A DNA stretch of 64,000 nt, from NCBI RefSeq assembly GCF_021917145.1, contig NC_061062.1, forward strand, positions 6,337,160 to 6,401,159. Direction: 5' to 3'. The DNA comes from Hypomesus transpacificus (Eukaryota; Chordata; Actinopteri; Osmeriformes; Osmeridae). The notes below the pieces were generated by a model. The model did not search any database. It saw only the letters and a program-made list of their open reading frames with translations, and was not told the DNA's origin. Of this stretch, positions 14,064-46,607 are shown piece after piece. Made by a program: the position numbers and the translations under genes. The number at the start of each line of letters is the position of its first letter. The first letter of the stretch is position 1.

Positions 14064-14253
14064 AATGAAAACCTAGATAATGTGTGTGTAATGAGGAATG
14101 GGTATCGTCATCACAAATATACATCTGTCATCTGTCCTGTAGGTAGAGCTACAGCTCAACAAGTCCTCCAGCAGCAGACTGGGGGTGAAGTCTTGTTCTA
14201 TATCACTCCAGAGCTCCTCAGAGTCCCTGAACATTTCTGGACTGAGAGTCAAC

Positions 14254-16143: not shown

Positions 16144-16345
16144 TGTTCAATGAAAACCTAGATAACGTGTGTGAAATGAGGAGATGGGTATCGTCATCAC
16201 AAATATACATCTGTCATCTGTCCTGTAGGTGGAGTTACAGCTCAACAAGTCCTCCAGCACCAGACTGGGGGTGAAGTCTTGTTCTGGATCAACCAGAGCT
16301 CAGAGCTCCTCAGAGTCCCTGAACATTTCTGGACTGGGAGTCAAC

Positions 16346-16843: not shown

Positions 16844-17063
16844 CACAGTGCTGCAGATCCCCTCTGTTCTCTACAAAAACCCTCCTCTCTCCTCCAAGAG
16901 TGGTTTGTGTGTCATAGTGAAACACCTGCATCTGAGGTCTGAATTAGATCCAGCAACATCATATCAGCACAGTCGGATTACATCATTTCCTGTTCCTGCT
17001 ACAACTCCAGTAAGTGATGCTAAGTCCTCAGTTGGTCCTCCAGGCTCAGCACTGATGGTCACC

Positions 17064-17796
17064 ATGATCAGACTTCTCACTATCTTCTCTGTTCCTTTGT
17101 TCTGGATCACAGGTAAGCCTGCTGACCTCACAGGACATTACACATTGACGCTGCTACTAAAATGCCTTTAAACTGTAGTGTTGTAGTTTTACAGAAATAA
17201 CAAAATCTGCATGGCAAATGTTAAGGATCGTATAAATCATTATTACAGTAATACCCTCTCCTTCTCTCTCCACAGGAGTGTCACTCAGTCAAGAGGTGAA
17301 CCAGACTCCCTCTACTCTACTACTGACATGAGAGTCAGGTTGTTGAGCGGTTAGGGAATCGGGCTAGTAATCTGAAGGTGGCCAGTTCGATTCCCGGCTG
17401 TGCCAAATGACGTTGTGTCCTTGGGCAAGGCACTTCACCCTACTTGCCTCGGGGGAATGTCCCTGTACTTACTGTAAGTCGCTCTGGATAAGAGCGTCTG
17501 CTAAATGACTAAATGTAAATGTAAATGTACTCTCCTGTGGAAGCCAGAAGAGAAGATCCAACTGAGCTGCCGTCATAAGATTCCTGATTACTACACTATA
17601 CTCTGGTACCAGCGCTCAGTGGGAGACACTGCCCTGAAACTTATAGGGTTTGTTTATTACAAAACTATTACCGTTGAGTCTCCGTATCAGGACATCTTCG
17701 ATGTGAGTGGAGATGGTGAGAAAGAAGCCTACCTTCATCTCTTCAAACTGAGGCAACCTAAAGATGATGGACGATATTTCTGTGCAGCTTATATGA
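17064..17796 (+). pseudogene. TRBV segment 12 (V12), disrupted by SINE
   Basis: Leader exon 17064-17112 is intact and the V exon begins at 17276 (GVSLSQEVNQTPSTL), but after about 14 codons a 209-bp SINE (17319-17527) interrupts it. The V sequence resumes at 17528 and runs LLWKPEEKIQLSCRHK, ILWYQRS and RYFCAAYM to 17796. RSS is intact: CACAGTG 17797-17803, 22-bp spacer, ACAAAAACC 17826-17834. The SINE introduces an in-frame TGA (codon at about 17323), so no receptor chain can be made although recombination could still occur. Confidence 0.92.
17319..17527 (+). mobile_element. tRNA-derived SINE inside V12
   Basis: tRNA-like head with TTGAGCGGTTAGGGAATC and B-box GGCCAGTTCGATTCCCGG, a central body (CTTGGGCAAGGCACTTCACC), and a tail GTCGCTCTGGATAAGAGCG ending in repeated AAATGT units. 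The target duplication TACTCT is at 17313-17318 and 17528-17533. The tail matches the end of the L2 LINE at 12068-12130. Two minus-strand copies are at 39771-39976 and 48720-48914. The family is active enough to have hit a V gene after the cassette duplication. Confidence 0.9.
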
Positions 17797-17834
17797 CACA
17801 GTGGTACAGAGCTCAGCTCCGCTCTACAAAAACC

Positions 17835-18340
17835 TTTCAGTGATCAACAGGCCCTTCAGTACACCTGTATCAAACCACAATAACAGTCCTGAACTCAGAG
17901 GAGAGAGAAAGAGGGAGACAGAGAGAGGGGCGGAGTGACAGAGATAGAGTGAGTTGAAGAAAAAGAGATAGAGACAGAAAGCATCACTAGGGATATCATA
18001 TCCTGTCTTCACCAATAAGAACCATGAAGCAGTGTATGTTAGTTGGTGTAGGTTAGCTAGTGTAGGTTAGCTAGTGTAGGGTAGCTGGTGTAGGTTTGCT
18101 TGTGTATTGCAAGTGGCAGATCATAATGTCTGCTCTTCTTGTTCCTATGGCCGCAGAAGGCTGTTTACGTTTTGGAACTCTGTTTGCTGTATTCAAGTTT
18201 TTTTTAAATTGTGTGTCCACTTTTTAAAAAGAGGCCTGGGGCCCACCGTCAGTTGGCTTTACTAAATAAAGGATAAATAATTTATTCATAATTAATTTAT
18301 TTTATAAACACATCAAATGGAGATCTGAATACACACACTG
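17835..18340. other. no gene seen; short GTAGGTTAGCTA repeats
   Basis: Apart from purine-rich simple sequence (17895-17970) and a few direct repeats of GTGTAGGTTAGCTA at about 18047-18100, nothing is recognised. Confidence 0.4.
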
Positions 18341-18707
18341 TGACAAGGGGGCCTTGTCAACCATGGTCCTGGCAGCATGTTGGCCTCGTTACCGACGCAA
18401 AGCCTCAACGAAGCACACCTGTTGCACATCTACCCCACTCCTGGTGAGTACAAAAGGGGACAAAAAGGGGTGATATGGTGGTTGATGTGGACATGTTCTA
18501 TGCTACATAGACTCGCCCCAAGGAGAGAAGCACCCTAACGCTTGAGGCAGGCGGGCCAGAGGCTACGACCCGTGGAGACCGAAGAGACACGCCGACATAG
18601 TTCTCATTTTCCTTAGTACTGTTTTTGTTTTACCCCAAAAGGGGCTATTAAAAAACCTTTGGCTTACCTTCTCTTTCATTAGTCTGGCTCAGTGCTTCAC
18701 CACAACC
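18341..18707 (+). mobile_element. possible solo LTR
   Basis: The block starts TGTGACAAGG and ends CTTCACCACA, giving short inverted TG...CA-type termini. Inside are TTTTACCCCAAAAGGGGC, an ATTAAAAAACC stretch that could act as a polyadenylation region, and a following GT-rich part. Target duplications are not clear, and no gag or pol is present. Inference only. Confidence 0.3.
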
Positions 18708-18951
18708 ACACATTACCACTGGTCAACTTGTTTGGTCAGCTAAATTAACTCACAGTATTCTGTAATGTTATGTCTACCTTGGAACATCACTTCCTTCTTA
18801 GCAACACAGTAATTTAACACATCCAGTAGAGAGCAGTAGCACAACACTAGCTGTGACGCTGTAGCAGCTATAACTCTCTCCCACACCAGGAAGTATGAAG
18901 ATCCAATAGAGTTTAGGTCCCTTAGCTCCTCCCACGTCAAAAAGTTTAAAG

Positions 18952-19472
18952 ATGAAACTGAGTTTAGTTGTGTTTCTGATCTACTCCCCTATCTGTGAAG
19001 CTGACAATCACCATGACTACAGCTCTTGTGGTGGCCTGTGTCTGGAGACTGGGGGTCCCAGGGGGAGGTTCTGTGTCATGTCCCACGGTCAGGACTGGTA
19101 CCGGATTAGAACTGTTGGGAGCTGTCCTCCCTCTCTTCTGGATCGCCACGGCATCCGGCTTCTCAACCAACTTCGTTCAACAGTCGCCACGGGGACTCGT
19201 TGTGAAGCTAGGAGATGCCATCAACCTCACCTGCAGCCACCATGATAAAAAATACGATAAAATGTACTGGTACAGGCAGGGGTCTGGGCAGGGGCTTCAG
19301 CTCCTGGGCTTTCTGACCTTCAAGCAGATGTTTCTAGAAAGTATGTTCCAGAACACAGAAGACGCTCCAGAACCCTTCACCATGTCAGGTGACGCTGAGG
19401 CCGAGGGCTTCCTGGAGGCGTCTGCAGTGAGAGCTGAGGACAGGGCCGTGTACTACTGTGCTGTGGGTAGAG
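18952..19472 (+). CDS. TRBV segment 13 (V13), unusual leader
   Basis: The V domain reads INLTCSHHDKKY (first Cys), KMYWYRQGSG (Trp) and AVYYCAVGRA (second Cys), ending at 19472. The leader is odd. A hydrophobic GAVLPLFWIATASG, like the leader of V6/V8, is directly continuous with the V domain in one frame from ATG 19013, so the usual leader intron may be absent. Alternatively ATG 18952 starts a 43-nt leader exon (MKLSLVVFLIYSPI, donor GTGAAG at 18995) that could splice in phase to an AG at 19111-19112. RSS: heptamer CACGGTG 19473-19479 (one change), 23-bp spacer, nonamer CACAAAACC 19503-19511. Confidence 0.8.
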
Positions 19473-19747
19473 CACGGTGAGGCAGCTCCTCTCTCCACGT
19501 TACACAAAACCTCAGTCCTCCCCCTACTCCTCCCCCCTCTACTGCCCCTCCTCTTCCCTTATCTCCTCCCCCTCTCTCCTCCCCCTCTCTCATCTTCCCT
19601 TCCCACATTAAACACCAGCCGACTGCTGAACCCAGATGGAGACAGCAGCCGTCTGTCTACCACCCACTCATCAGTTAATGACAACGGAAAACCGTTCAAC
19701 TGAATTCATAAAGCTCAAATACATCTAGCTGTCTCTGAAGTCACACA

Positions 19748-20401
19748 ATGTTCTCAGTCTTTCTCTCTGTGTTTATTTCCCTGTCCCTCTACTTTACAGG
19801 TAAGTGTGACAGAAACATCCCCTTTCTGTCCAGGGAAGTGTCTCTCCACCCTGGCCCTCTCAGCTGGTGTTGTCTCTGTGTCTCTCCGCCCTGGCCCTCT
19901 CAGCTGGTGTTGTCTTTGTGTCTGTTTGCCCTGGCCCTCTCAGCTGGTGTTGTCTCTGTGTCTCTCCGCCCTGGCCCTCTCAGCTGGTGTTGTCTCTGTG
20001 TCTCTCCACCCTGGCCCTCTCAGCTGGTGTTGTCTCTGTGTCTCTCCACCCTGGCCCTCTCAGCTGGTGTTGTCTCTGTGTCTCTTGCAGAGGAAGTGCT
20101 CTCAGCCCTCATCATCCAGCAGACCCCTCAGCATCTTCTGGTGACGCCTGAACGCCAGCAGACACGGCTCGATTGTCACCACGGCGACAACAGCTACCCT
20201 TACATGCTGTGGTACCAACAAAGAGATGGCCAGGGGACCATGGAGCTGGTTGGGTTGCTACACTATGAAAACGCAAACCTGGAGAAGAAATTCCACTCAG
20301 GACGCTTCAACATAACGGGCCACTCTAAGGGCAAGGCCGCCCTGGTCATCTCCAACATGGCCGCGGATGACAGCGCTGTGTATTTCTGTGCAGCGAGTCA
20401 G
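19748..20401 (+). CDS. TRBV segment 14 (V14), defective heptamer
   Basis: Leader exon 19748-19799 (MFSVFLSVFISLSLYFT) and V exon 20091-20401 with LDCHHGDN (first Cys), YMLWYQQRD (Trp) and AVYFCAASQ (second Cys). The coding part is intact. The heptamer position reads AACAGTG (20402-20408), so the essential first bases CAC are lost; a 22-bp spacer and ACAAAAAGT (20431-20439) follow. Recombination should be poor or absent. The leader intron holds six 40-bp repeats (19841-20080). Confidence 0.85.
19841..20080 (+). repeat. 40-bp minisatellite, six copies, in V14 leader intron
   Basis: Six head-to-tail copies of a 40-bp unit beginning TCTCTCCACCCTGGCCCTCT and continuing CAGCTGGTGTTGTCTCTGTG. Each copy carries a pyrimidine tract ending CCCTCTCAG, a plausible decoy splice acceptor. 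All three forward frames stay open across it, so long reading frames here are not genes. Confidence 0.95.
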
Positions 20402-20733
20402 AACAGTGTTACATCTCTGTTTCCTCTGTGACAAAAAGTCAGTGCCAAAGCCACATGCCTGACAAGCCACCACCGTTCTAAAACTGCACTGATAGTGTGG
20501 TGGAGTCAGTTTAGTCTTTCACGATGAACACAGCATGGGCTACATACCTAAATAACTCAACATGGTGTCCAGCAGTCTGCTAACTAACAGAGAGAATGTG
20601 TGTAATAATGAATAAAAAGAAACATAGGTAAGAGACAGCATTGCAGATTTAAATAATCCGTTTTCAACATATACAAAAAGTAGTTACCAGAAGGGGGCAG
20701 GCACAGCCCCAAGTTTTTTCATGACATCCCAGT

Positions 20734-22969
20734 ATGGAAGCAAATCGTGACCAAAATTCAAATGAAAATGCATTTCCAGAAATGCATTTTCATTTTAAGA
20801 ATGTGGCTGCATTATTTGACTCATAAATCAAATTAGTATTCAATCATCCTATTTGCATTTTCATTTTCTTCTTTAAGACTGCTCATTCTTTCCCTTAATT
20901 AAAATGAAAACGAAAAAGACATTTGAAATTTAATTTTCAAAATATGCCCCAGCAAATAGATACCAAAATTCAATTTGAAATGTAAAATTTGAAAATGAAA
21001 ATGCATTTCCAGAAATGCATTTTCATTTTAAGAACGTGGCTGCAAAATCGTGACCACAATTCAAATTCAAATGCATTTCCAGAATTGCATTTTCATTTTC
21101 AAGAACGTGGCTGCAAAATCGTGACCACAATTCAAATTCAAATGCATTTCCAGAAATGCATTTTCATTTTTAGAACGTGGCTGCAAAATCGTGACCACAA
21201 TTCAAATTCAAATGTATTTCCAGAAATGCATTTTCATTTTAAGAATGTGGCTGCATTATTTGACTCATAAATCAAATTAGTACTGATTAGTACTGAGCGG
21301 ACATTGCATTTTCATTTTCATGTTCTGCCCGCAAAGAACTGCCCATAATTCGAAAACGAAAATGCATTCTGAGCGGCGCAGTAGAGTGACGTCAGTAGCC
21401 GCTCTTCTTCAGCTCCCTGCTGACCGAGCTACCCATCTTGTTCGGTAGGGGGCGGTGTGCACATACGCATTGCATTACATGACAAATGTGCCTGGAAATT
21501 GATTGAATTGCCGGGTCTTTAGAGGACGCATCATAGATCATGGCGCTCCCTCAAATTGTGCAGACACTGATAGAATTAGCTGAGCTGGTAGAAACTAATA
21601 ATATATCTGAGTCTGATGCCCGTGACCGAGTAGAACAAGTCACAGAGAGCTTGGCTGCATACTCTGCCGTCACAGACGTACACATTAATGAGGTTGCCAT
21701 AGTAAACCTCTCTTCAGTCCTGGAACGGCTGGATGCTGTGGAGCCTCAAATGGGACGGGGACGACCAACCATCCACATCCCGTTCGAGTCCATCGAAAAC
21801 TATTTATTAAATGGTCTACTTTTTCCTGTGAAAGCAAGCTGTTTCACCTTTGGCCTGGTTCAGACAAAATCTGAATTTCCGCAATCTGAATTTGAATTTC
21901 CTCAATCTGAATTTCAAGAATCTGAATTCCTGCAATCTGAATTTTAGAATGTTTTATTTTTGGATCAAAATAATTCAGTTGTATTAAATTTGGCATACAA
22001 ATAATTCAGATATTATATATTCAACAGCAATATATTTAAGTTTTATGAAATTCAACACACAAATATTTCAGATCTTTCATATTCAAATTCAGGTACTTTT
22101 GTCAGCTTTCTAGCTCCATAAATCCGTTGCTTTGCATCCTCCGACGGATGGTCTGGTGGCCGACAACAGCTCCGCTATGTCCTTTATTTTTAAACCATTT
22201 AATAAATAGTTTTCGATGGACTCGAACGGGATGTGGATGGTTGGTCGTCCCCGTCCCATTTGAGGCTCCACAGCATCCAGCCGTTCCAGGACTTAAGAGA
22301 GGTTTACTGACGTCACTCTACTGCGCCGCTCAGAATGCATTTTCGTTTTCGAATTATGGGCAGTTCTTTGCGGGCAGAACATGAAAATGAAAATGTAATG
22401 TCCGCTCAGTACTAATCAGTACTAATTTGATTTATGAGTCAAATAATGCAGCCACATTCTTAAAATGAAAATGCATTTCTGGAAATACATTTGAATTTGA
22501 ATTATGGTCACGATTTTGCAGCCACGTTCTTAAAATGAAAATGCATTTCTGGAAATGCATTTGAATTTGAATTGTGGTCACGATTTTGCAGCCACGTTCT
22601 TGAAAATGAAAATGCAATTCTGGTAATGCATTTGAATTTGAATTGTGGTCACGATTTTGCAGCCACGTTCTTAAAATGAAAATGCATTTCTGGAAATGCA
22701 TTTTCATTTTCAAATTTTACATTTCAAATTGAATTTTGGTATCTATTTGCTGGGGCATATTTTGAAAATTAAATTTCAAATGTCTTTTTCGTTTTCATTT
22801 TAATTAAGGGAAAGAATGAGCAGTCTTAAAGAAGAAAATGAAAATGCAAATAGGATGATTGAATACTAATTTGATTTATGAGTCAAATAATGCAGCCACA
22901 TTCTTAAAATGAAAATGCATTTCTGGAAATGCATTTTCATTTGAATTTTGGTCACGATTTGCTTCCATA
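20734..22969. mobile_element. 2.2-kb foldback element, hAT-like target duplication
   Basis: The two ends are long inverted repeats: TGGAAGCAAATCGTGACC at 20735 onward and its reverse complement at 22950-22967. Both arms carry repeated AAATGCATTTCCAGAAATGC blocks, an AAGAACGTGGCTGCAAAATC block and CATAAATCAAATTAGTA. ATCCCAGT at 20726-20733 and 22970-22977 is an 8-bp target duplication, the length typical of hAT elements. The core (21300-22330) carries part of a captured or ancestral reading frame, present in both arms but with deletions in the right arm. No transposase is recognised. Confidence 0.85.
21540..21947 (+). CDS. small ORF inside foldback element, unrecognised
   Basis: A 135-residue frame from ATG 21540: MALPQIVQTLIELAEL, an acidic helical middle (SESDARDRVEQVTESL), a GRGRPTIHIPFESIENYL stretch, and a terminal tandem FPQSEFE-type repeat. 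The GRGRP-x-IxIP motif faintly recalls N-terminal parts of DDE-integrase-like fish repeat proteins, but this is weak. Part of the frame (about 21690-21810) recurs inverted at 22185-22310. Probably a captured exon or an element remnant, not a host gene. Confidence 0.3.
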   Translation: MALPQIVQTLIELAELVETNNISESDARDRVEQVTESLAAYSAVTDVHINEVAIVNLSSVLERLDAVEPQMGRGRPTIHIPFESIENYLLNGLLFPVKASCFTFGLVQTKSEFPQSEFEFPQSEFQESEFLQSEF

Positions 22970-23035
22970 ATCCCAGTGCCAACATCCAGCTATGTGTACA
23001 AATAGGACTGAATGTCATGTTCACATCCATCAGCC

Positions 23036-23518
23036 ATGACAATGTCTAAAGCTGGCCTTCTCGTCCTTCTTGTCTTCTCTTTTCTCCTGGCTACAGGTAA
23101 ACAACATAAGCAACACTACACATTTGAAGACAACAGTTTTAGATACACTTTCATAGTAACTCACTGCATGAGTAATGTTAATCTGAAAGACGTATATGAT
23201 CATTATTTATGTCCCAGGTTGTTCCTCCGTGACTAGCAAGGTGTACCAGATCCCACACGCTTTAATTAGTGACCCTGGAGAGAATGTCGAGCTACGCTGC
23301 AATCACAAGCAGACAGGCGCTGATTGTATTTACTGGTACCAGCAATCTGTGATAGGAGAACTCCAATTCCTTGGCAGACTCTTCTACTCGGAGCACATCA
23401 TGGAAAAGGACGTCGATAAGCGGTTATCCATGGCCGGGACGACTACTTCCAGCGGCTTGTTGCTCATTTCAAACGCCTCAGTAAAGGACAGCGGTGTTTA
23501 TTTTTGAACAGCAACGAC
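23036..23518 (+). pseudogene. TRBV segment 15 (V15), second Cys changed to stop
   Basis: Leader exon 23036-23096 (in-frame ATGs at 23036 and 23042) and V exon from 23218. The first Cys is in ELRCNHK, Trp in CIYWYQQS. At the conserved second Cys the sequence reads GVYF then TGA (23505-23507) where TGT or TGC is expected; a single base change kills the segment. The RSS remains good: heptamer CACTGTG 23519-23525, 23-bp spacer, ACAAAAACT 23549-23557. It could still rearrange but not encode a chain. Confidence 0.88.
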
Positions 23519-24199
23519 CACTGTGAAACCAATCCTCCACTTCCCTTAACAAAAACTCAACTGGTCCAAACTTGTATCCGTGAACATATGGTTATTTTAG
23601 GATGAAACGATTTAGGTTTTAGGTTTAGTTTAATGGCAAAGATTGATGAAGCTTAACCAATGGTGCGTGGCTTTTAGCTCAATGTATTCGTGCGTGGTCT
23701 TTTGTGTGGGAAATTGTGGTTCTGATCTCGCTCAATGCGCTAGGCAATACTGTTTGCTAGCGGCTATAGGAGCCCATGGTGGAGTCTTGCCCAGCTGCCT
23801 CTCGTCTTGCCTCTTCTGGGCATGCTGTACCCTCTCCAGCCTTAAACCACAGCCAACATCAGCCTCCAGGGCCGTGTACACGCACACATCTCAAGGCTCA
23901 CTATAGTCCTCCTGTGCAGTCAGTCGAGGGCACTGTTAAAGATGCCCCACTTCCTCAACATAAACCCCTTCTATGATGTTGGTTTCAGGAGGACTGACTA
24001 GTGCACTTGCGGAGCATGATGAAAGTGTTCTTTTCATAAATGTTCGCTAGTATTTGGTGTATGTGGGCAGCTCCTCTGTATCATTTTTATTCAGGAAGTG
24101 ACGTGTTTTACTGTTGTGGTTGAACTGATTATGTTATTTCCTGCCTGTTGTGTTCTGTACTTGTCAGTGTTTACTGTGTTTGTCTCTGACTGAGTCAAC

Positions 24200-24736
24200 A
24201 TGTTCCCAGCCCTCACCATCAGTGTCTTTGCCCTCTGGCACACAGGTACAACAAGCATTCACCCTCTGCCTTTACAACACTGAATTACCTCATTCTTTGT
24301 CTTGTGCTTGAGACAGAAGAAGTTTGAGACTCACTTGGACCAAACTCCTGGTTCTCATCTACCTTCGGTTCTGAGTGTCTAACTTCTGGTTCTCATCTAC
24401 CTCCGGTTCTGAGTGTCTAACTCCTGGTTCTCCTCAGGTTGGAGCCAGACTGTGCTGATCACCCAGTGGCCAGGCTACATCTCCAGCCAGCCTGACGCCT
24501 CGGTGGAGATGCACTGTTATCAGAACAACACAGACCATCCCTACATGTTGTGGTACAGGCAGCAGAGAGGGAAGGAGCCCGTGCTGATGGCTACTCTCGT
24601 AGCTGGGTCTCCGAGCTACGAACCTGGGTTTGATTCTGGCTTTGGAGTGTCAAGCTCGGAGAAAAAGATGTGGTCTCTGGCCGTGAAGGCGGTGCGCAGT
24701 ACTGACGAGGCGGTGTATCTGTGCGCTGCCAGTCAG
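24200..24736 (+). CDS. TRBV segment 16 (V16)
   Basis: Leader exon 24200-24245 (MFPALTISVFALWHT) and V exon 24438-24736 starting GWSQTVLITQWPGY. First Cys MHCYQN, Trp YMLWYRQQR, second Cys AVYLCAASQ. RSS: CACGGTG 24737-24743 (one change from CACAGTG), 23-bp spacer, ACAATATCC 24767-24775 (weaker nonamer). AGTGACGTGT at 24097-24106, 94 bp before the start, resembles the V-beta promoter decamer. The leader intron contains a duplicated CTGGTTCTCATCTACCT stretch (24348-24433). Coding part intact. Confidence 0.88.
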
Positions 24737-24906
24737 CACGGTGCTGCAGAGTCACGGAGCTCTGAGACAATATCCCTCCCTGGGAGGCTGCCAGGAGGCT
24801 CTGACACCTGCTGTTCATGGCCCAGCCTGCTCACTGGTGGTGGGAAAGAATGCGTCTTCCTAAGTAGGCAGTTACCTTATCTACCTCCGGAGGGGGAAAA
24901 AAGTTG

Positions 24907-25620
24907 ATTTATTTTTATTCTGACTTAAAGCCAGTACATGTTTGGGCAGAAACCAACCATGGACAAATCCTCTTGGATGATGACTTTCTGTAGCCATGAG
25001 GAACAGGACAACATGGGTCATGTATCTGTGTTACTTCACACGTTATTCATTCAGCAGATGCTTTAATCCAAAATGACATATAAACACTACATTTAGACCC
25101 TAAATTTAACCCTAACAGCAGATCAAGGATCTGAATTACAGTATTCTAACTTCATTTCAGGGGTTAGTCAAGGAACAGTCTGTATTTACCAGGCACAATG
25201 CAAAGTAACATCTCAGTTCAACAATAATATATATCCACTACAGGACACTACAGGATATCTCAAGTACAATATGACATAGTCCAATCACCAATACCATCTC
25301 AACTATATTACATAGTACAAGCAACAAAACCATCTCAACTATATTACATAGTACAAGCAACAAAACCTTCTCAACTATATTACATAGTACAAGCAACAAT
25401 AACATCTCAACCATATTACATGGTAGTGCAACAATAACATTTCAAGGACAACATTACTGTTGCCTTACTATGTGAAATGTGCCCTTGGGTGTCTTGAAAG
25501 GCACAGTAAATGTAAGTTATTATCATTAGTGTAGTACAACAATAACGTGTCAACGACAATAGAGGGAGCCCAGATGCTGTCATGTGGAGTATGTGGTTAA
25601 GGATTAAACATCTCTATCTG
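24907..25620. other. no gene; 36-bp-type tandem repeats
   Basis: About four imperfect copies of CATCTCAACTATATTACATA GTACAAGCAACAAAAC lie at 25290-25450. An L2/SINE-like tail fragment (CAGCAGATGCTTTAATCC) lies at 25053-25070. No coding feature is seen. Confidence 0.5.
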
Positions 25621-25623
25621 GTG

Positions 25624-25845
25624 ACTGTGAGTCTCTCTACAGACAGCAGAGGTGTCTAACTGTGAGTCTCTCTACAGACAGCAGAGGTGTCTAACTGTGA
25701 GTCTCTACAGACAGCAGAGGTGTCTAACTGTGAGTCTCTACATACAGCAGAAGTGTCTAACTGTGAGTCTCTCTACATACAGCAGAAGTGTCTAGCTGTG
25801 AGTCTCTCTACAGACAGCAGAAGTGTCTAACTGTGAGTCTCCAGA
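25624..25845 (+). repeat. about 35-bp minisatellite upstream of V17
   Basis: Six to seven copies of a unit GTGAGTCTCTCTACAGACAG followed by CAGAGGTGTCTAACT, with some units shortened by a CT. It ends just 20 bp before the V17 start codon and so occupies the expected promoter position. Confidence 0.9.
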
Positions 25846-25866
25846 CCTGCTGATGCCCTCGTGGCC

Positions 25867-26363
25867 ATGATTGTTCTGAGATGTCTCGGTTTCTTCATCT
25901 TATTTCCATGTAAGCTTTTTCTCAGGCTACCAAAGCTCTGACTTATTGCTTCAAGAGAGGCCAGGACAAACCTTTATTAAAAGGTATGCTGGTAGAATAC
26001 ATTGCTTTCTCTCTCCATGTCCTGTTTGTCTCCTTCTCTGTGTTCATCCTGTTATCTCCGTAGGTGCTGTGAAGAGCGTGACCTTCCAGCAGTCTCCGTC
26101 TGTCATGGTTACAGAGAACGCCAGCGTAGAAATCTTGTGTAGCCATGACGACAACAGCTTGTTGGTCATGCTGTGGTACCAGCAGCGACCTGTCTCTCGG
26201 GATATGACCCTCATCGGGTACGGTTATGCCTCCTCCGAGCCCAGCTACGAGGGTCAGTTCCAGGAGAGCTTCCAGCTCACCAGAGAGGACACCCTGAGAG
26301 GAGCGCTCCTCCTCCCCCGCGCAGCTCCTGCAGACTCGGCCGTGTATTTCTGTGCTGCCAGTA
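25867..26363 (+). CDS. TRBV segment 17 (V17)
   Basis: Leader exon 25867-25909 (MIVLRCLGFFILFP, donor GTAAGC) and V exon 26064-26363. First Cys EILCSHD, Trp VMLWYQQRP, second Cys AVYFCAAS. RSS: CACAGTG 26364-26370, 23-bp spacer, ACCAAAACC 26394-26402. The reading frame is open and phases match. The immediate 5' flank is a minisatellite instead of the usual promoter region, so transcription of this segment is uncertain. Confidence 0.9.
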
Positions 26364-26403
26364 CACAGTGATGTGGCTTGATGCCACCGCCTCACCAAAA
26401 CCC

Positions 26404-27106
26404 TGGTGCGCTCAGTCACACAGGAAAACCACCTCACTGTTGTTAGGGAGTTTGGTTGTTTTGTTTTAGACGTTTCTGTGGAGGGATAGGCAAAGTTGTA
26501 TTCTCAGTGTGAATTATGTTATATCGATATCATATTAAAATACTTGGAGTTAACTCACATTAGTTTTGTTCACAACTTTTCCCGACAACAAACTGAAATG
26601 AATCTTGTGTTCCCATGAGGAGTGAGGGAGAGCCTGCTGAGTGGTCGTAACTTTACGCTGGAGCCAGTTCTAACTCATTTAGTCTTTCTAACCTCTGTAC
26701 CTCTCTTCCTTTTCCCTTTATAACTGAGCATGTCATGTAACATATTAATCCAGCAGGTGTTTCTATCCAACGCAACGTACAGAAGGTATTTGAACCTGCA
26801 ACCTCTTGACCTGCAGTCACATACTCTAACCTTTAGGCCTATCCTCAGATTCATGTCCAACAGTACCCCTACCAAGCACCAACCCTCAGACCCTAACACA
26901 GCAAGACCCTGCATTACTACATTCATGTCACTGATCCATCACCTCACTGCACCAGACACAAGAGCCACAGGGCACCACAAAGCAAGAGCTAGTCTCCAAG
27001 CAACACCGACTATTGGTCACGTGACCTGCCGGTTGGTTTACTGTGAACTGGTGAGACCGTGATGTGGATGTAACATCATTCAGCAGGGGAAGTGGTTAAC
27101 AGCAAC
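26404..27106. other. V17-V18 spacer; SINE fragment and E-box palindrome
   Basis: A minus-strand tRNA-type SINE remnant lies at about 26760-26850 (TTGAACCTGCAACCTCTTGA). GGTCACGTGACC, a perfect E-box/CRE-like palindrome, lies at 27015-27026, 81 bp before the V18 start codon, where other segments carry the V-beta decamer. No gene is seen. Confidence 0.45.
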
Positions 27107-27653
27107 ATGCTAGTCACAGTCCTGGGACTTCTTCTGACTCTGATCTACTCATGTGAGTGCAGGAAAGGAATGTTCTGGTACTTTTCCAAACAAAACAATT
27201 AACACAACTTTGTTAATGGAGCATACACAGTACTGCATACTAAACTGGAAATGCTGAAATCATATTTCATCCACAGATTCGAGAATGTTTTTCCATCCTC
27301 CACATCTGTTATACCTGATCTCCTGAATGCTGTTTCTTCTTCTCTGGTGTTGTGTAGGTGAGGGTTCAGGCCCCACGGTCCTCCAGGCACCCAGACAGAT
27401 TGTCCTCCACGCTGGGCAGACCGACCAGGTGACCCTGCAGTGCAGCGTGGGTCCCGGCTTCAGCATGAGCAGCTACACCATGCTATGGTACCGCCAGGCT
27501 GGCTCCGGGGCTCCGATAGAGTTCCTCACCAAGGAGTACGAGACTCCCGAGGGCCACCTCCAGCCCTCTATCGACACGTCCAGCAACAGCTTCACCCTGC
27601 GGATATCAGAGCTGTCTCCGGATGACAGCAGCACCTACCTCTGTGCTGCCAGT
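27107..27653 (+). CDS. TRBV segment 18 (V18)
   Basis: Leader exon 27107-27152 (MLVTVLGLLLTLIYS) and V exon 27358-27653 starting CEGSGPTVLQAPRQIVL. First Cys LQCSVG, Trp TMLWYRQAG, second Cys TYLCAAS. RSS heptamer CACAGTG 27654-27660, 23-bp spacer, weak nonamer GCAAATACA 27684-27692. It has a distinct framework (GFSMSSYTM loop) and higher GC than its neighbours, so it is a separate subfamily. No defect in coding sequence. Confidence 0.9.
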
Positions 27654-27692
27654 CACAGTGCTGCCAAGTAGACTGGGAGCCATGCAAATACA

Positions 27693-28397
27693 TCATCTGA
27701 AGCTAATGACATTAGGATGACATGAAAGGCTGATCAGAGATGTGCAGGAAGGTGTTGTGGCTCTTCTGGTTTTGTTAGTGAGCGGGCTGGTGTAACGGTG
27801 TGTTGGCGGCGCGTTTGTCTGTATGTTTAGCTGGGAACTTTCTGAGGGGCGTTTCATTGTGATAGAGGAGGAGAAGATTTTGAGGTTGTTGGGCCAGCAT
27901 AGGAGGCAAATGGGTTACAGCCACCTCAGTATTGTCAACAATGTCAACAAAAACTGATGTGACAGCATGAACTAGCCCCTCTAGAGGATCCACGAGTCAT
28001 ACTTATATACATACTTATACTGATACATCATTTTCATTACCGGGGGAGGAGTAAAGACATTGTTGGTGGAGAACAGAAAGGAGTCTAGTGGAACCTACTT
28101 GTATTAATCATTTTCACTCAGTATAGCTCAGTGGTAGGGCATGAGGATGGGTATAGCTCAGGGGCAGAACATTTGGGCACAGAACCACAATTGCAACCAC
28201 TTAGAGGCAATTTTGCCAAATATTGCTTTGGATGAAAGGCTCTGCTAAATCAACACACATCTTTTTTCACACACATTTTTACACACAACTTTGCTAAAAT
28301 CCAGCAACGTCTGAATTTCCCATCTCTGAGGTGTGACCACATGACCCCCCCCCCACACACACACACCCCTCCCCCCTCCCGTGTGTATCAGTTTCCT
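27693..28397. other. no gene between V18 and V19
   Basis: A tRNA-like A-box fragment (AGTATAGCTCAGTGGTAGG) lies at 28120-28140, and a C/CA-rich tract at 28345-28380. Nothing else is recognised. Confidence 0.4.
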
Positions 28398-28407
28398 GGT
28401 GATGTCA
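28398..28407 (+). promoter_or_regulatory. V-beta type decamer before V19
   Basis: GGTGATGTCA differs from the consensus AGTGAYRTCA at one position and lies about 105 bp upstream of the V19 start codon. Confidence 0.5.
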
Positions 28408-28511
28408 GTAGACAACCTCCCTCTAGGCATGGGGAGGCAGTGAGGATGCAGGAAGGAGGCAGAGCAGGGCTGGGGAACAGAGACCTGGACGTTCTCTCTC
28501 TCTCTGACACC

Positions 28512-28942
28512 ATGGAGCTGCTCTGTGTGTTAGTAGCTCTCCACCTCACTACCGGTAATAGCAACCCTCTTCTCACACACAGCGGGTTATGTGCCCATCT
28601 AAAAAGTGTGTTCAGATATACATTATATACGTTATTTCATTTCCCAGAGTTCTGCTCAGCTGTGAATGTTCAGCAGAGGCCCCGACACGCAGCGCTACGT
28701 CAAGCAGAGTCCGTGACTCTGGACTGTGAACACGATGACAGCAACTTTTACTACATGTTCTGGTACCGACAAACAGGCAGCCAGATGCGCATGCTTGCTT
28801 CCTCCATGGGCAAGAATGTGTCAACGGTGGAGGCTGGACCCAGATATGCCATGTCTCGTCCTAACCTGACTTACTCCTCCCTGGAGATCAGACAGCTGGA
28901 AGGGCAGGACTCTGCGGTGTATCTCTGTGCCTCCAGAACTGG
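28512..28942 (+). CDS. TRBV segment 19 (V19), D-proximal
   Basis: Leader exon 28512-28554 (MELLCVLVALHLTT) and V exon 28648-28942 starting EFCSAVNVQQRPRHAAL. First Cys LDCEHD, Trp YMFWYRQTG, second Cys AVYLCASR; it ends CAS-R, close to the mammalian CASS pattern, instead of CAAS. RSS: heptamer CACGCTG 28943-28949 (two changes, CAC kept), 23-bp spacer, nonamer ACAACAACC 28973-28981 (one change). It is the closest forward V to D. Recombination strength may be reduced. Confidence 0.85.
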
Positions 28943-30491: not shown

Positions 30492-30570
30492 TGTTTTTGT
30501 GTGATGGTTTAACACCGTGGGGACAGGGGGCCACGGTGATATATTCCTATTGAGCCGCCGTACAAAAACC
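30492..30570 (+). other. TRBD segment with both RSSs
   Basis: Core D GGGACAGGGGGC at 30520-30531. On its 5' side: nonamer TGTTTTTGT 30492-30500, 12-bp spacer, heptamer CACCGTG 30513-30519. On its 3' side: heptamer CACGGTG 30532-30538, 23-bp spacer, nonamer ACAAAAACC 30562-30570. This is the classic TRBD arrangement, 12-RSS upstream and 23-RSS downstream, allowing V-to-D and D-to-J joining. From memory the 12-base core equals human TRBD1; G-rich in all three frames. Only one D was found. Confidence 0.95.
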
Positions 30571-30911: not shown

Positions 30912-30962
30912 ACACTGGAAGTCAAGCCTACTTTGGGAATGGAACAAAACTCACTGTTTTAG
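30912..30962 (+). CDS. TRBJ segment 1
   Basis: Encodes QAYFGNGTKLTVL, with the FGxG motif, and ends after one codon base at donor GTAAGT. RSS heptamer CAATGTG 30905-30911 (GTG, the J-side critical part, is kept); a T-rich nonamer-like CCTTTTTGG lies about 13 bp upstream of it. Confidence 0.9.
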   Translation, partial: TLEVKPTLGMEQNSLF

Positions 30963-31092
30963 GTAAGTTCAGGTCCTTCAAAGTCACAACACTGTAATTA
31001 ATCTAAAACACTGGAAAGAATAATGAAGTTGTCATGAGAGATGTTGGGTTCTGTCAAAAGTTCCACTAATGGGTTGGTGTGAAAACACTGTG

Positions 31093-31141
31093 ACCAATCA
31101 ACCAGCCTTCTTTGGCAACGGAACCAAACTCACAGTTTTAG
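31093..31141 (+). CDS. TRBJ segment 2
   Basis: Reads TNQPAFFGNGTKLTVL with the FGxG motif and donor GTAAAT. Heptamer CACTGTG 31086-31092 is consensus; no clear nonamer at 12 bp, GGGTTGGTGT being the nearest T/G-rich stretch. Confidence 0.9.
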
Positions 31142-31295
31142 GTAAATATGTTGAAAATGCTTGAAAACATTTGTCCTTATTTCCCATGTCTGTCAGGGGC
31201 TTGTTAGTGTGGAGTTAGGGATGGGACTGTAGTAGGACAGGAAGTTAGAGAAGACGGGGCATAGTTAGCATATTATGCTAAACTCCACCAGTGTG

Positions 31296-31347
31296 TACAA
31301 TGCCAACCCAGCATACTTTGGAGCTGGAACCAAACTGACCGTTTTGG
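31296..31347 (+). CDS. TRBJ segment 3
   Basis: Reads YNANPAYFGAGTKLTVL, donor GTAAGA. Heptamer CAGTGTG 31289-31295 (one change outside GTG). Confidence 0.9.
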
Positions 31348-31475
31348 GTAAGAAACTGCACAATGTCTCTTTGTTTGGAGTAGTTGAACTGCGATGTGGG
31401 GGACTGATACTGTATGGTGAAGGATGCTTGAAGATTTCCACTTGGCACTTTTTGATGTTAAGCTTGTGCACTGTG

Positions 31476-31523
31476 CCAATTATGAAGCCTACTTTGGTCA
31501 AGGCACAAAACTGACGGTTCTGG
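31476..31523 (+). CDS. TRBJ segment 4
   Basis: Reads NYEAYFGQGTKLTVL, close to mammalian J-beta with FGQGT; donor GTGAGT. Heptamer CACTGTG 31469-31475, with CTTTTTGAT about 12 bp further upstream as nonamer. Confidence 0.92.
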
Positions 31524-31795
31524 GTGAGTAATCCTTACAAAATATGTGGGTTTTAACTACAGGTATACAGTAGGTGAGCTGAAATACCCAAACATAGCTA
31601 AATATTTCTGTTGAAAAATTAGCATTTCAGTTTGTATCCGTTTGTGTTTGGCAGTGGTTGTACTGTATCGTGGTGTTGTAGGAGTCTGTCAAGAGAATAA
31701 CATGATTAAAATGCAAACGGGATCAAATGTACTGTAGAGAGAGGAAGGCAGCTGGGAGAGATGGGTGAATTAGAGTTGAGGTCTGGAGAGCTGTG

Positions 31796-31846
31796 ACTCT
31801 GGTAGAGAAGCTTACTTTGGTGGAGGAACCAGGCTGACTGTCCTAG
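31796..31846 (+). CDS. TRBJ segment 5
   Basis: Reads SGREAYFGGGTRLTVL, donor GTGAGA. Heptamer position AGCTGTG 31789-31795 keeps the CTGTG end but not the outer bases; no good nonamer, so use may be low. Confidence 0.85.
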
Positions 31847-32224
31847 GTGAGACCAGATTTCCTGTCAATCCTGTTCACAGCCAACACAGGATAGTATGAT
31901 TAAAATATGTAAATTGGACTCCTTTGTGTTGTATAATAACAATATGTTGTGACAATCTGGAAGCAGGTTGACTGATAGATTGTGACATGGGGATTGCTAG
32001 ATACAAAAAAAACTGCAACAACAACACAAACATTTACCAAATTAAATATAAATTTACAAATGTATAAATTGCAGTAAAGGAAGGCTGACTTCTGTCAGAT
32101 CATACTCTGATCTCATGGATCTTGTCCCTCAGAGAGTCACAAAGACTGAGAACGTTTTCTAAAGGTAGAGTGACATCAGGACAATTTGTAAAGATGGTTT
32201 TTGTAACAGCGTAGACACTCTGTG

Positions 32225-32274
32225 CTCGTACTCCCAGGCATACTTTGGAGCTGGAACGAAACTTACAGTTTTAG
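32225..32274 (+). CDS. TRBJ segment 6
   Basis: Reads SYSQAYFGAGTKLTVL, donor GTAAGA. Perfect nonamer GGTTTTTGT 32196-32204, 13-bp spacer, heptamer CTCTGTG 32218-32224. Confidence 0.92.
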
Positions 32275-32584
32275 GTAAGAAAAGATGCTGTAAATTGTTA
32301 TGATATGTGTGTAAAGCTCTCCGATAAGGTAACAGTCTTGGCATAATCACTATTGTACAAACCTTTAGCTGATTACGACCATTTATTTGGTTGAAATGAC
32401 ATACGGATGTTGCATTTTGAAACTGTAAAAATAAATGTCAAAGTCTTGTAGGATTTATAAACTATAGGAAGCACTGCCTGTGCTCTGCCATCATATTGGG
32501 TTTTGCGGTGATTATGTGCTAGAGTTGGCTCTATGCCCAGATCCTGGTACACAATGAGTTGATATCTCCGTTATAGCGACTGTG

Positions 32585-32633
32585 GGTTTCAATGAGGCTT
32601 ATTTTGGGAAAGGAACCAAACTCACCGTCTTAG
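32585..32633 (+). CDS. TRBJ segment 7
   Basis: Reads GFNEAYFGKGTKLTVL, donor GTAAGA. Heptamer GACTGTG 32578-32584 with one outer change; weak nonamer. Confidence 0.9.
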
Positions 32634-32965
32634 GTAAGACATGGACAAAAACGACTTAATTTTCTCATAAATGTCTCAGGGATAGCTTACTGTAGCCTTT
32701 TGCGGTGATCGAATAAGGCTGATAGAAGTTGGGAGGGTTACTAATATCCTTTTTGTTAAATATTTGTGGAAAACATTTGTCCTTCAATCAGGAAAACAAT
32801 ACAGCTGATCGTTGTTGTTAGTCAGATTATGAATCAAAATGTAAAATGTGAGGTTCTATCAGTTGTGTGGAATAGTGAGAAATTATATTACAATAAGAGC
32901 ACGCGGACGAGCATGTGGAGGAACAGAGGACGGAAAGTGTTTTACTGTAGCCGTTTATCAGTGTG

Positions 32966-33014
32966 AACTACGACCCTGCTTTCTTTGCCGGCGGGACCAA
33001 ACTCACGGTCCTAG
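32966..33014 (+). CDS. TRBJ segment 8, FAGG variant
   Basis: Reads NYDPAFFAGGTKLTVL, so the first Gly of FGxG is Ala. Donor GTGAGA. Heptamer CAGTGTG 32959-32965 with TGTTTTACT upstream. Its downstream flank is the diverged parent of the 289-bp units carrying J9 to J11. Confidence 0.85.
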
Positions 33015-33260
33015 GTGAGAAACGATTTGTGTATTTATGAACTGTGGCTGTGAGATATTTGAATTCCCATTAACGAGAGATTCTGGAACCGTCTATTAAT
33101 GTCTCAAATGAAGGGTCGGTGTTAAATTATGTGAAAGAGTAATAGACCCTATAGTTTCCTACACATGGTATGAATGTGATTATTCGAGAATAATGTTTTC
33201 TGAACAACCGTAACAATCGGGAACAGGCCTTTAGTTTTCTGCTGGTGCGCATGTGGTGTG

Positions 33261-33313
33261 CTCCGGTAGTTATCCTGCTTACTTCGGAGGGGGGACTAAG
33301 CTAACAGTGCTCG
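33261..33313 (+). CDS. TRBJ segment 9
   Basis: Reads SGSYPAYFGGGTKLTVL, donor GTAAGT. Heptamer TGGTGTG 33254-33260. First of three J segments spaced exactly 289 bp apart. Confidence 0.9.
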
Positions 33314-33881
33314 GTAAGTGAAATGTTAGAATGTTACTTTGGCTGTGAGATGTATGAATTCCCATTAACGAGAGATTCTGGAACCATCTATTAATCAGCC
33401 TATGTCTCAAATGAATGGTGAGTGTTAGAATGTGAAAGATAATATAGCGTTAGTTTCCTAGACATGGTAAGAATGTGATCATTCGAGAATAATCTGAACA
33501 GCCGTAGAAAACGGGTAGGCTAGTTATCTGCTGGTGCAAATGTGGTGTGCTCCAGTACTTATCCTGCTTACTTCGGAGGGGGGACTAAGCTAACAGTGCT
33601 CGGTAAGTGAAATGTTAGAATGTTACTTTGGCTGTGAGATGTATGAATTCCCATTAACGAGAGATTCTGGAACCATCTATTAATCAGCCTATGTCTCAAA
33701 TGAATGGTGAGTGTTAGAATGTGAAAGATAATATAGCGTTAGTTTCCTAGACATGGTAAGAATGTGATCATTCGAGAATAATCTGAACAGCCGTAGAAAA
33801 CGGGTAGGCTAGTTATCTGCTGGTGCAAATGTGGTGTGCTCCAGTACTTATCCTGCTTACTTCGGAGGGGGGACTAAGCTA
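33304..33881 (+). repeat. two tandem 289-bp J units
   Basis: Bases 33304-33592 and 33593-33881 read as identical copies, each running from the end of one J across its intron into the next J. The preceding J8-J9 interval (about 33015-33303) is an older, clearly diverged copy with the shared TGAATTCCCATTAACGAGAG and TTCGAGAATAAT blocks. Confidence 0.9.
33550..33602 (+). CDS. TRBJ segment 10
   Basis: Reads SSTYPAYFGGGTKLTVL, donor GTAAGT. Heptamer TGGTGTG 33543-33549. Identical to J11 as read, including flanks. Confidence 0.9.
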
Positions 33882-33891
33882 ACAGTGCTCG
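33839..33891 (+). CDS. TRBJ segment 11, C-proximal
   Basis: Same sequence as J10, SSTYPAYFGGGTKLTVL, donor GTAAGT, heptamer TGGTGTG 33832-33838. Only 114 bp separate it from the first constant exon, so splicing to C would use an unusually short intron. Confidence 0.9.
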
Positions 33892-34005: not shown

Positions 34006-35198
34006 ATCCCAATATACCAGTCAAAGCTCCGACCAAGGTCAGTATTCTGCCCCCCTCCAAACACGAGTGTAAGGATGCCAAAGACAACAAAAACAAGAAG
34101 ACCCTGGTGTGCGTGGCCACCGGCTTCTACCCGGATCACGTCAGCGTGTCCTGGACGATCAATGGCGTGAATGTAACCGATGGAGTGGGGACGGACCACT
34201 CGGCCGTGTGGGACAACGTAACGGAGAGGTACAGCATCACCAGCCGCTTGAGAGTGCCTGCCGGAGAGTGGTACACAGACACCAATCAGTTCAACTGTAC
34301 TGTCCTCTTCTTTGATGGTACAGAAGAAAAACCCTGTCCAGCTTCCATTATGGGAGATAAAGGTACGTTAAACGAATGACTTGAGATCTTAAAAATATAT
34401 CTAAAGGCTGAACGTAATGGTACTGTGTATTGTGTGTTATTGTGGCAAATATATTTAATGTAATATGATGGTGAATGTTACTGTATCAAAGGTTGGCTTT
34501 TGTTTGTCTTTGACAGCTCTGTCAACTGGAGGCATGACAACAGGTATGTTTCGCACATATATTTTTAACAAGCTCAAATTGTGTGAAAGAGGTAGACTAC
34601 TGTATTTTTGACTCTGCTATGGTAACACCACATTGCCACCCAGACTCATGGAAGTGTGTTGTTTTCCACAGAGAACTACGTGAAGAGCACTCAGACAGCT
34701 AAACTGGCGTACATCGTCTTCATCGCTAAAAGCAGCCTGTATGGGTTCTTTGTGGTCGTGTTTGTGTGGAAGCTCCAGGTGACTGTTCTACACTAACCAC
34801 TCCAGCCCTGCAACAGCTATGGAAACACAACACAGTTTATGCTATACTATAGTATGCTTAAGAGCCCTGATATTGCCTTGACAATAAAGGGCACACTAAT
34901 AATATAATGCCTAAATTATGACTACTACACTATTTTAGAAACTATATGCATGCATTTATGGGTTTGCTGAGTGGTCAGAGCATTTTAACAGCAGATCAAG
35001 AGGTTCGAATCCCCCTAACTACGCTTACATCAGTCTTCTTCTAAACAACACATTATTATCATTATGATTTCTGTTCTGTCATTCCTAGGCAGTTGATAAA
35101 AGGTTCTGTAATGTTTTGAAAGTAACAACAGACGATGTGTGCCTGCCACCTGTCTCCTCTCTCCTCCACAGGGTAAATCTGGGAAGCATTTCACCTGA
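34006..35198 (+). CDS. TRBC, T-cell receptor beta constant region
   Basis: Exon 1 (34006-34362) encodes a C1-type Ig domain: start DPNIPVKAPTKVSILPPS, first Cys in LVCVATGFYPDHV, Trp in SVSWTING, second Cys in NQFNCTVLFF, plus ECKDAK and KPCPAS cysteines. Exon 2 (34517-34543, 27 nt) encodes a short linker LSTGGMTT. Exon 3 (from 34672) encodes ENYVKSTQTAK and the membrane span LAYIVFIAKSSLYGFFVVV with the buried Lys that pairs with CD3. The tail either reads through to TAA 34794-34796 (KLQVTVLH) or splices at GTGACT (34780) to exon 4 (35172-35198, GKSGKHFT and stop). AATAAA at 35372. No Cys is seen in the connecting peptide, where mammals carry the interchain Cys. Confidence 0.95.
34964..35022 (+). 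repeat. tRNA-like SINE fragment in TRBC intron 3
   Basis: TTTGCTGAGTGGTCAGAGCA followed by AGAGGTTCGAATCCCCC gives A- and B-box-like blocks of a tRNA-derived SINE, truncated after the B box. Confidence 0.5.
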
Positions 35199-38852: not shown

Positions 38853-39171
38853 TGAACACAACATATTACAGTATTAGATGAGGGGAGATGAGGCCTCCAG
38901 CTCCATTCCTGAGATGACAGTTGTGTTACACGACCCAGAGTGTCACACAGCCATCTGTGACACTGTACTAGTGTACTACACTCTACACTGCTAATAACAC
39001 TGGTTTCAATGCACAGAATACACCCATCCACCTCATCCCTTGGGACAGTGGTGTTTGTGGGAGGAAGGTGTGGGGCTTTCATGTTCTGTCCAGAAGACAG
39101 AGCTGTACAGTACATGACTGTAATGACACTGGGGTTTTTGTATGGCTCCCAGCCTGCTCTGCTATGCTGTG

Positions 39172-39604
39172 GGTACTGGCTGCACAGAACCACATGCTGG
39201 GCTCTGTCTGGGCCACACCGGACGACTGCAGAACCATCGTCTGGCTGTCGGGCTGCACGGCGCTAAACCCGTCCTTACTGGCTGGCTCTACAAACCCAGC
39301 AGTGACCGAGGTGAAGACCAGCCTCATACCGTCTGCCCTGGTCCAGCAGTACCAATAGAGGTAGGGGTCGCTGGTGCCAGAGACCGAGCAGGAGACCTTC
39401 ACGGGGGAGAGAGGAGACAGAACCTGGCTGGGAGGATGCTGCTGGACGTCCATGCCCGCTATGTCTGGAGGGGGAGAGGGACGAGTTAGTGTAACACTGT
39501 TGGAGAGAGAGGTGCGGATTTAAGACAAACTCTACTTGGTATGGTTATTATAGAGGATGTGTTTTCTTACATTTAAGCAGCAGGAAACAGAGAAGAGACT
39601 TCAT
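39172..39604 (-). CDS. inverted TRBV segment (V20) downstream of TRBC
   Basis: On the minus strand: leader exon 39604-39571 (MKSLLCFLLLK, donor GTAAGA) and V exon 39464-39172 after acceptor CCCCTCCAG, phases matching. Landmarks: VSCSVSGTS (first Cys), LYWYCWTRADG (Trp), MWFCAAST (second Cys). RSS on minus: heptamer CACAGCA (39171-39165, last two bases changed), 23-bp spacer, perfect nonamer ACAAAAACC (39141-39133). Its orientation means joining to D-J needs inversion, like human TRBV30. Its heptamer suggests weak but possible use. A decayed duplicate lies at 45.5-48.1 kb. Confidence 0.9.
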
Positions 39605-45544: not shown

Positions 45545-45793
45545 TTTGTGACCTTGAGGCCTCCAGTTCCATTCCTGAGATGACGGTTACAGTGTTACAC
45601 GGCCCAGAGTATCACACGTTTCACACAGCCATCTTCTACATGTGACACTGTACTAGTGTACTACACTCTACACTGCTAATAACACTGGTTTGAATACATA
45701 CATTACACCCATCCAACTTCACGGGGGAGAGAGGAGACAGAACCTGGATGGGAGGATGCTGCTGGACCTCCATGCCCTCTATGTCTGGAGGGG

Positions 45794-46318
45794 TGAATCA
45801 AATCAAATGTATTTGAATAGCCCTTTTTACACGCAAGCATGTCACAGAGGGCTTCACATGCGCCCATAGAACTGCCCCTCAACCAACCTAAACCCTCAAG
45901 GAAGACAAGGAAAAACTCCCAGAAAAACTCCCGACAGGAGAAAAAATGGAAGAAACCTTGGGAGGAGCAATTCAGAGAGGGATCCCCTCCTCCAGAGACG
46001 GTTGGTGAGAATCATACAGTGTCAATGGGTTTTGAAACACCAAAATCCATTGTTCAACTTGGTAGATGTAGGAAGGGACCGGGACACTCGCTGTTGCCCG
46101 TCATGGAGACTGGTTTCTGGTTGGCGACCAGGTCCAGCGTTGGCAGACCGACGACCAGGCAGGTGCTGACAGCTCAAAGCCCCCACACCACAGGGGATGT
46201 GTGGAGGGGGGACAGAGAGGGGAGAGCAGGGATTAGAGAATCCCAGGAGCAGCTAACAGTTACAGTCATATTAGAATGAGATCCCCACCGGTCAAGTGTG
46301 GACTAGTAGGGGGACGGT
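45794..46318 (+). mobile_element. dispersed repeat in duplicated V relic
   Basis: Starts ATCAAATCAAATGTATTTGA and includes CAGAGGGCTTCACATGCGCC and AAACCCTCAAGGAAGACAAG, sequences I associate with a widespread fish interspersed repeat. It lies between the V-exon remnant and the leader of the duplicate and is absent from the 39.5-kb copy. Family not determined. Confidence 0.55.
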
Positions 46319-46607
46319 CAAATGGTAGAGGGACAAGTTAGTGTAACACTGATGGAGAGAGAGGTACGGATTTAAGACACTCTACTTGGTATGGTTATTA
46401 CAGTGGATGTGTTTTCTCACATTTAAGCAGCAGGAAACAGAGAAGAGACTTAATAATTGGTCCAGGGGAACTAAATGACTGACTGACTGTTTGCACTTAG
46501 AAATGGGTAAACCATCTGAAACAGGGCAAGAACCATATTAACTCTATGGTAAGAAAAGGTTTGGGTTCTGGGTCTCGCAGGACCTCTAGTGGTGACAGGT
46601 GGTATCT

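Follow-up and report, generated by a model that had tools for sequence, protein, structure and literature searches.

An inverted TRBV gene behind TRBC in Hypomesus transpacificus and its probable kinship with mammalian TRBV30

A V gene lying in inverted orientation behind TRBC has long been noted as an oddity of mammals. According to the available part of PMC11264764, mammalian V30 joins by inversion, the mode that we propose here for a fish gene; its RSS scores are lower than those of forward V on average, mouse and H. glaber excepted, and it is preferred in human, mouse, bats and Artiodactyla, and not in the rhesus macaque. Inverted V genes of a newt are mostly present in repertoires (PMC12698447, in the part available). 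For the inverted TRBV genes of amniotes, a common ancestral inversion predating amniotes has been proposed in the accessible text of PMC11754216, and in zebrafish and catfish TRBC is described as being followed by one V gene or a few in reverse orientation (PMC9247247, in part). The original prediction read the arrangement as implying rearrangement by inversion in fish, and either deep conservation or convergence; as a novelty, the arrangement is anticipated by these reports. An inverted V behind TRBC is already known in fish, and what is new here is a test of conservation versus convergence. In the literature searched, whose scope did not extend to the majority of subscription papers (the first reports on zebrafish and catfish probably among them), we found no study that sets an inverted V of a fish against TRBV30. 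The V tree of PMC11754216, as its Figure 3 legend describes it, has cod as its only teleost, a fish without an inverted V, and the Figure 6 legend also names zebrafish; the gene described below supplies a comparison of this missing kind.

The window, by which we mean the whole 64-kb stretch of H. transpacificus DNA that was analysed, contains the following features.

4243..28942, plus strand: forward TRBV cluster of 19 V-like exons (ORFs, RSS scan, BLASTN, tblastn)
27360..27692, plus strand: second-last forward V (V27654) with its RSS (RSS spacers, tblastn, trees)
28650..28942, plus strand: last forward V (V28943), TRBV29-like (reciprocal best with human TRBV29-1)
30520..30531, plus strand: TRBD, GGGACAGGGGGC, with a 5' 12-RSS and a 3' 23-RSS (RSS scan)
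30912..33891, plus strand: 11 TRBJ segments, one of which carries FAGG in place of FGxG
34006..34362, plus strand: TRBC exon 1, C1-set domain (Pfam, tblastn)
34517..35198, plus strand: TRBC exons 2 to 4 at 34517-34543, about 34672-34778 and 35172-35198 (by eye; exon 3 also by tblastn)
39133..39171, minus strand: 23-RSS of the inverted TRBV, composed of CACAGCA, a 23-bp spacer and ACAAAAACC (motif scan)
39172..39464, minus strand: V exon of the inverted TRBV, open and TRBV30-like (homology, PDB, trees, tblastn)
39465..39570, minus strand: leader intron of the inverted TRBV, 106 bp, with an acceptor, CCCTCCAG, that preserves the frame
39571..39604, minus strand: leader exon of the inverted TRBV (MKSLLCFLLLK), with ATG at 39604 and phase-1 donor GTAAGA
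45555..46606, minus strand: whole decayed duplicate of the inverted TRBV (BLASTN against the window)
45717..45785, minus strand: 5' part of this second, decayed inverted V exon, the remaining exon and the RSS being missing

Within the forward cluster, V23519 has a stop in place of 2nd-CYS and V17797 is interrupted by a repeat of about 0.2 kb. The two copies of this repeat (17332-17529 and 39777-39974) are 91% alike and lie in opposite orientation, one splitting the forward V at 17275-17795 and the other located just upstream of the inverted TRBV. Near-identical translated stretches at 20986-21270 (plus strand) and 22432-22716 (minus strand) flank, again in opposite orientation, an ORF at 21537-21947 that is without a Pfam match, an arrangement that looks like a mobile element within the V cluster. 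A short tandem repeat, recognized from ORF translations, occupies 19739-20151, immediately 5' of the V exon at 20090. The last three J segments (33256-33891) are near-identical copies at 289-bp spacing, with only some 115 bp separating the final one from TRBC exon 1. There is a single four-exon TRBC within the window (plus strand, 34006-35198), and the distance from it to the inverted RSS is 3.9 kb; a G-rich 20/30-bp minisatellite with about 21 copies of the 20-bp unit is found between TRBC and the inverted TRBV (38316-38746). The 3' neighbor beyond the inverted gene encodes an endonuclease (Pfam Endonuclease_NS), which we take to be ENDOD1-like, and is followed on the minus strand by exons with Ig, Kunitz and ADAMTS-spacer domains, presumably of a papilin-like gene.

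The inverted TRBV occupies 39604-39133 of the minus strand, where leader exon, intron, open V exon and 23-RSS are all present, so that the complete gene claimed in the original prediction, with its exon phases, was found beyond TRBC. The spliced frame, with a phase-1 splice, is open for 109 codons and gives the predicted product MKSLLCFLLLKYIAGMDVQQHPPSQVLSPLSPVKVSCSVSGTSDPYLYWYCWTRADGMRLVFTSVTAGFVEPASKDGFSAVQPDSQTMVLQSSGVAQTEPSMWFCAAST; an alternative pyrimidine-preceded AG in the leader intron (CCAACAG) would lead to a stop, as read from the sequence. The anchors 1st-CYS, conserved Trp and 2nd-CYS were all found. Trp replaces the usual Gln after WY., and the residue that follows WY is Cys. 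The V exon gave no Pfam V-set match at E up to 1, a profile matched by all five forward V tested (of 19) and by TRBV30; such a match is helpful, and lies outside the IMGT definition of a TRBV gene. An AlphaFold model, built on the alignment of window V, predicts an all-beta, V-like fold with a mean pLDDT of 83. A long open frame was considered as evidence for the gene and rejected, as 749 of 20,000 random window frames are open for 109 codons. Because an open frame alone is so common, the evidence for this gene is homology together with an RSS positioned exactly at the end of V.

The heptamer of this RSS, CACAGCA, starts at 39171 and is two positions off consensus, while the nonamer ACAAAAACC, which ends at 39133, is intact, as are the splice sites, the anchors and the frame. 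The window holds six 23-RSSs with at most two mismatches, five at V ends and one at the D end, against an expectation of 0.07 per 64 kb (100 dinucleotide shuffles). A literature search for a published Trbv31 RSS to serve as comparison found none. With regard to the forward V genes, the RSS spacer measures 22 bp, not 23 bp, in 11 of the 18 examined, those located from 4546 to 19473, and nine of these 11 have both a consensus heptamer and a consensus nonamer; spacers of 23 bp are those of the five D-nearest forward RSSs and of the inverted TRBV.

The original prediction that this V implies rearrangement by inversion agrees with the RSS geometry. The inverted 23-RSS and the 5' 12-RSS of D face the same direction, so that RAG cutting at 39171/39172 and 30519/30520 would flip the segment 30520-39171 (8,652 bp) instead of deleting it. 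The flip would put V beside D(J) with TRBC in sense, and the signal joint would stay on the chromosome. Inverting this segment in silico yields the sequence ...TGTGCAGCCAGTACC joined directly to GGGACAGGGGGC..., with V then D on the minus strand and J and C in sense after D, as well as a signal joint of head-to-head heptamers. No minus-strand J was detected in the window by tblastn with one J query, and tblastn with two C-exon queries gave only noise-level minus-strand C matches (E 3.7 or worse); D segments were sought solely through the RSS scan. No deletional partner is therefore seen within the window, and since the one D-J-C that was found lies on the plus strand, the inverted TRBV appears to be joinable within the window only by the 8,652-bp inversion, the sole mode found available there. 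In this animal the gene would be rearranged by inversion and expressed.

In order to place the inverted TRBV among known V genes, we compared the window V with 23 human TRBV and mouse Trbv31; these reference proteins do not come from database records, TRBV30 being the one whose sequence agrees with the PDB residues. In the comparison of 20 window V with the 23 human TRBV, the inverted TRBV and human TRBV30 are reciprocal best matches: the fish gene finds TRBV30 at 47.9 bits (next human V, 29.0), TRBV30 finds the fish gene at 47.5 bits (next window V, 33.1), and TRBV30 is among the top four for none of the other 19 window V. When the human proteins are searched by tblastn, there is just one V exon on which TRBV30 is the best, that of the inverted TRBV (55.8 bits, 2.5e-13). 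The fish V thus singles out TRBV30 from 23 human V.

A phmmer search of PDB gave a similar picture among the best 60 of 1329 matches. The top one is an scFv that matches through two domains (28.1 + 20.3 bits), and the second to fifth are TCR beta chains (45.4, 45.3, 37.0 and 36.9 bits). Two of these chains bear the name Mel5, and in all four we take the V to be TRBV30, save a few changed residues in two engineered ones. Chains of TRBV30 type are therefore the best single-domain matches of the inverted TRBV among these 60; next come a nanobody construct with 36.7 bits and a bispecific alpha/beta TCR with 36.1, and after them plain beta chains, which reach 34.7 bits at most. A Mel5/TRBV30 chain is absent from the best 60 for all three forward V tried (V28943, V19473 and V24737), and the ranks of V19473 and V24737, being swamped by multi-Ig constructs, were used solely for this absence.

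Maximum likelihood trees were built from 18 of the 20 window V (without V17797 and V23519), the 23 human V and mouse Trbv31, varying three models, the alignment settings and the taxa omitted. The inverted TRBV forms a clade with TRBV30, and with Trbv31 where included, in all eight runs, with SH-aLRT support of 87.8-95.5 and UFBoot support of 96-99; the runs are not independent, because one is a reseeded repeat and another gives identical values. Residues S16, P17, V24, P29, G52 and S77 are common to the inverted TRBV and TRBV30/Trbv31 and rare in the other aligned V.

The last forward V points in the same direction. In the human locus the forward V genes end with TRBV29-1, and the inverted one is TRBV30. 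V28943 and TRBV29-1 are reciprocal best matches among the same 20 window V and 23 human TRBV, the best plain TCR beta chain among the best 60 PDB matches of V28943 is named TRBV29-1 (51.5 bits), and in the trees V28943 groups with TRBV29/TRBV20 (support 75-92 / 76-93). Taken with the human order, this indicates that humans and this fish have in common the order TRBV29-like, D, J, C, inverted TRBV30-like.

These comparisons make the inverted TRBV a probable counterpart of TRBV30/Trbv31 in position as well as sequence, which would go back some 430 million years to the last ancestor that ray-finned fishes and tetrapods share. The two genes would then descend from one ancestral inverted gene, and the layout is suggested to be very old rather than reinvented. 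Of the two possibilities left by the original prediction, deep conservation is favoured over convergence by PDB matches, reciprocal best matches and trees; proof is another matter, as the AU test rejects only one of 11 alternatives. That one makes the tree's 18 window V monophyletic (p=0.0476). Ten placements are not rejected, with p from 0.0504 to 0.498: the inverted TRBV may be grouped with V27654 (0.498), V24737 (0.334), the TRBV6 group (0.30), V5414/V7147 (0.247), TRBV29/20 (0.198), V19473 (0.102), the main fish group (0.098), TRBV15 (0.085), V20400 (0.078) or V28943 (0.0504). The phylogenetic check against TRBV30 therefore yields a constant clade and alternatives that mostly survive. The inverted TRBV agrees with TRBV30 at 28 of 93 positions, and with TRBV6-5 and V24737 at 25 of 94 each.

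The surviving placement with V27654 counts in favour of a rival reading, a convergent origin. A J-proximal forward V, the V27654 lineage being the best candidate, would have been copied in reverse beyond TRBC within fishes, and the likeness to TRBV30 would reflect an old shared V family and not a shared inversion. The RSS spacer of the inverted TRBV is identical to that of V27654 at 17 of 23 positions (next best, 9), and no further 23-mer on either strand of the 64-kb window gets to 17 identities; V27654 is also sister to the TRBV30 clade (support 56-78 / 72-81) in the six runs containing it. The likeness of the spacers fits such a sister relationship, but also a fish-level copy or an exchange of RSSs. 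The inverted arrangement is not universal in teleosts, since the TRB genes of cod are all forward (PMC13149839, in part) and the salmonid V-D-J-C unit has almost all genes in a single orientation (PMC10464911). Position and lineage can also come apart, given that the family of the chicken inverted V has forward members (PMC10972964, in part). On the other hand, the best pairing is that of the inverted TRBV with TRBV30, V27654 is not the best window V of TRBV30, and BLASTN with 38500-40200 as query found nothing at 27.3-27.7 kb of the window (E 1e-3), so we hold a convergent inversion to be rather unlikely. As a separate observation, CDR1 of V27654 (27360-27653) seems long and CDR2 short by eye, as in salmonid TRBV6, which is described with three V exons versus the one here (PMC10464911).

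The remaining explanations concern the use of the gene and its setting. An intact-looking but idle gene (an IMGT ORF or young pseudogene), rarely or never joined or displayed, is a minor possibility that deserves to be taken seriously: it would fit the missing Pfam V-set match, the atypical W and C that follow the conserved Trp, the non-consensus heptamer and the decay of the tandem duplicate. That duplicate retains 81% identity to the inverted TRBV over 5' flank, leader and intron (230/285 with gaps), 96% over 77 bp around the start of the V exon (three differences from the intact copy) and 82% over the downstream flank; its leader and V exon are set apart by some 530 additional bp, and its ATG, most of its V exon and its RSS are lost. 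The splice sites, anchors, frame and nonamer of the inverted TRBV speak against idleness, as does the predicted V-like fold, and mammalian V30 is in use despite mostly lower RIC scores (PMC11264764, in part). It is quite improbable that the gene belongs to a minus-strand TRB unit placed head-to-head, with deletional joining to a D-J-C outside the window. Mirrored units do exist in pike and salmonids (PMC10464911), and the region to the left of base 1 lies outside the window; however, a minus-strand J or C above noise is absent from the window, a deletional join would remove the entire plus-strand cluster, and a head-to-head layout puts V between units, not behind TRBC. Least credible of all is an assembly error that turned a normally forward V round. 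TRB misassembly has been suspected in pink salmon (PMC10464911) and the orientation is that of the assembly, but the decayed duplicate 6 kb away shares the inverted orientation, which makes a local flip less likely, and an equal layout is published for other fish and for tetrapods (PMC9247247, PMC11754216 and PMC10972964, each in part).

Returning to common descent of the fish and mammalian genes, we lean on balance towards one V having been kept inverted behind TRBC since the fish-tetrapod ancestor, with a TRBV29-type V retained as the last forward V. If this is true, 'TRBV29 - D - J - C - inverted TRBV30' would be the ancestral layout of bony vertebrates, and its persistence would hint at selection for inversional joining itself. 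If the inverted V of other fish agree, the layout would be ancestral and its retention would beg for a functional reason. As inversion retains all forward V and turns round no more than 8.7 kb, this stretch of DNA would make a compact model in which to set inversional against deletional TRB joining.

Among described loci, the salmonid and pike TRB unit resembles that of H. transpacificus with its single D, its single TRBC and its J segments, up to ten in number, and trout TRBC likewise has four exons, whereas salmonids and pike differ in their duplicated head-to-head units (PMC10464911 and PMC9247247, in part); the single opposite-strand TRBV3 of salmon is located within the V cluster rather than behind TRBC (PMC9247247, in part). 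Zebrafish and channel catfish are alike in carrying the main V-D-J-C in one orientation followed by one or a few reverse V, a likeness drawn from the published layout, and differ in having dual TRBC versus one here (PMC9247247, in part). Human TRBV30 and mouse Trbv31 match in arrangement, as the original prediction had held: all are inverted 3' of TRBC, with a 23-RSS facing C-J-D, and TRBV30 is the reciprocal best match. The differences from TRBV30 are an identity of 30%, the one TRBC of H. transpacificus, and in its inverted gene the absence of the usual Gln after WY. and of a V-set match. The synteny expected with TRBV30 holds for the order from the TRBV29-like V to the inverted gene and not for the 3' neighbors, which are ENDOD1-like and papilin-like here, as opposed to EPHB6 or EPHB5 in several amniotes and a newt (PMC12698447, in part). 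The amniote 3'-inverted TRBV clade has the same position as the gene described here (PMC11754216, in part). We therefore class the H. transpacificus gene as a 3'-inverted TRBV, its descent from the same gene as TRBV30 being favoured but unproven.
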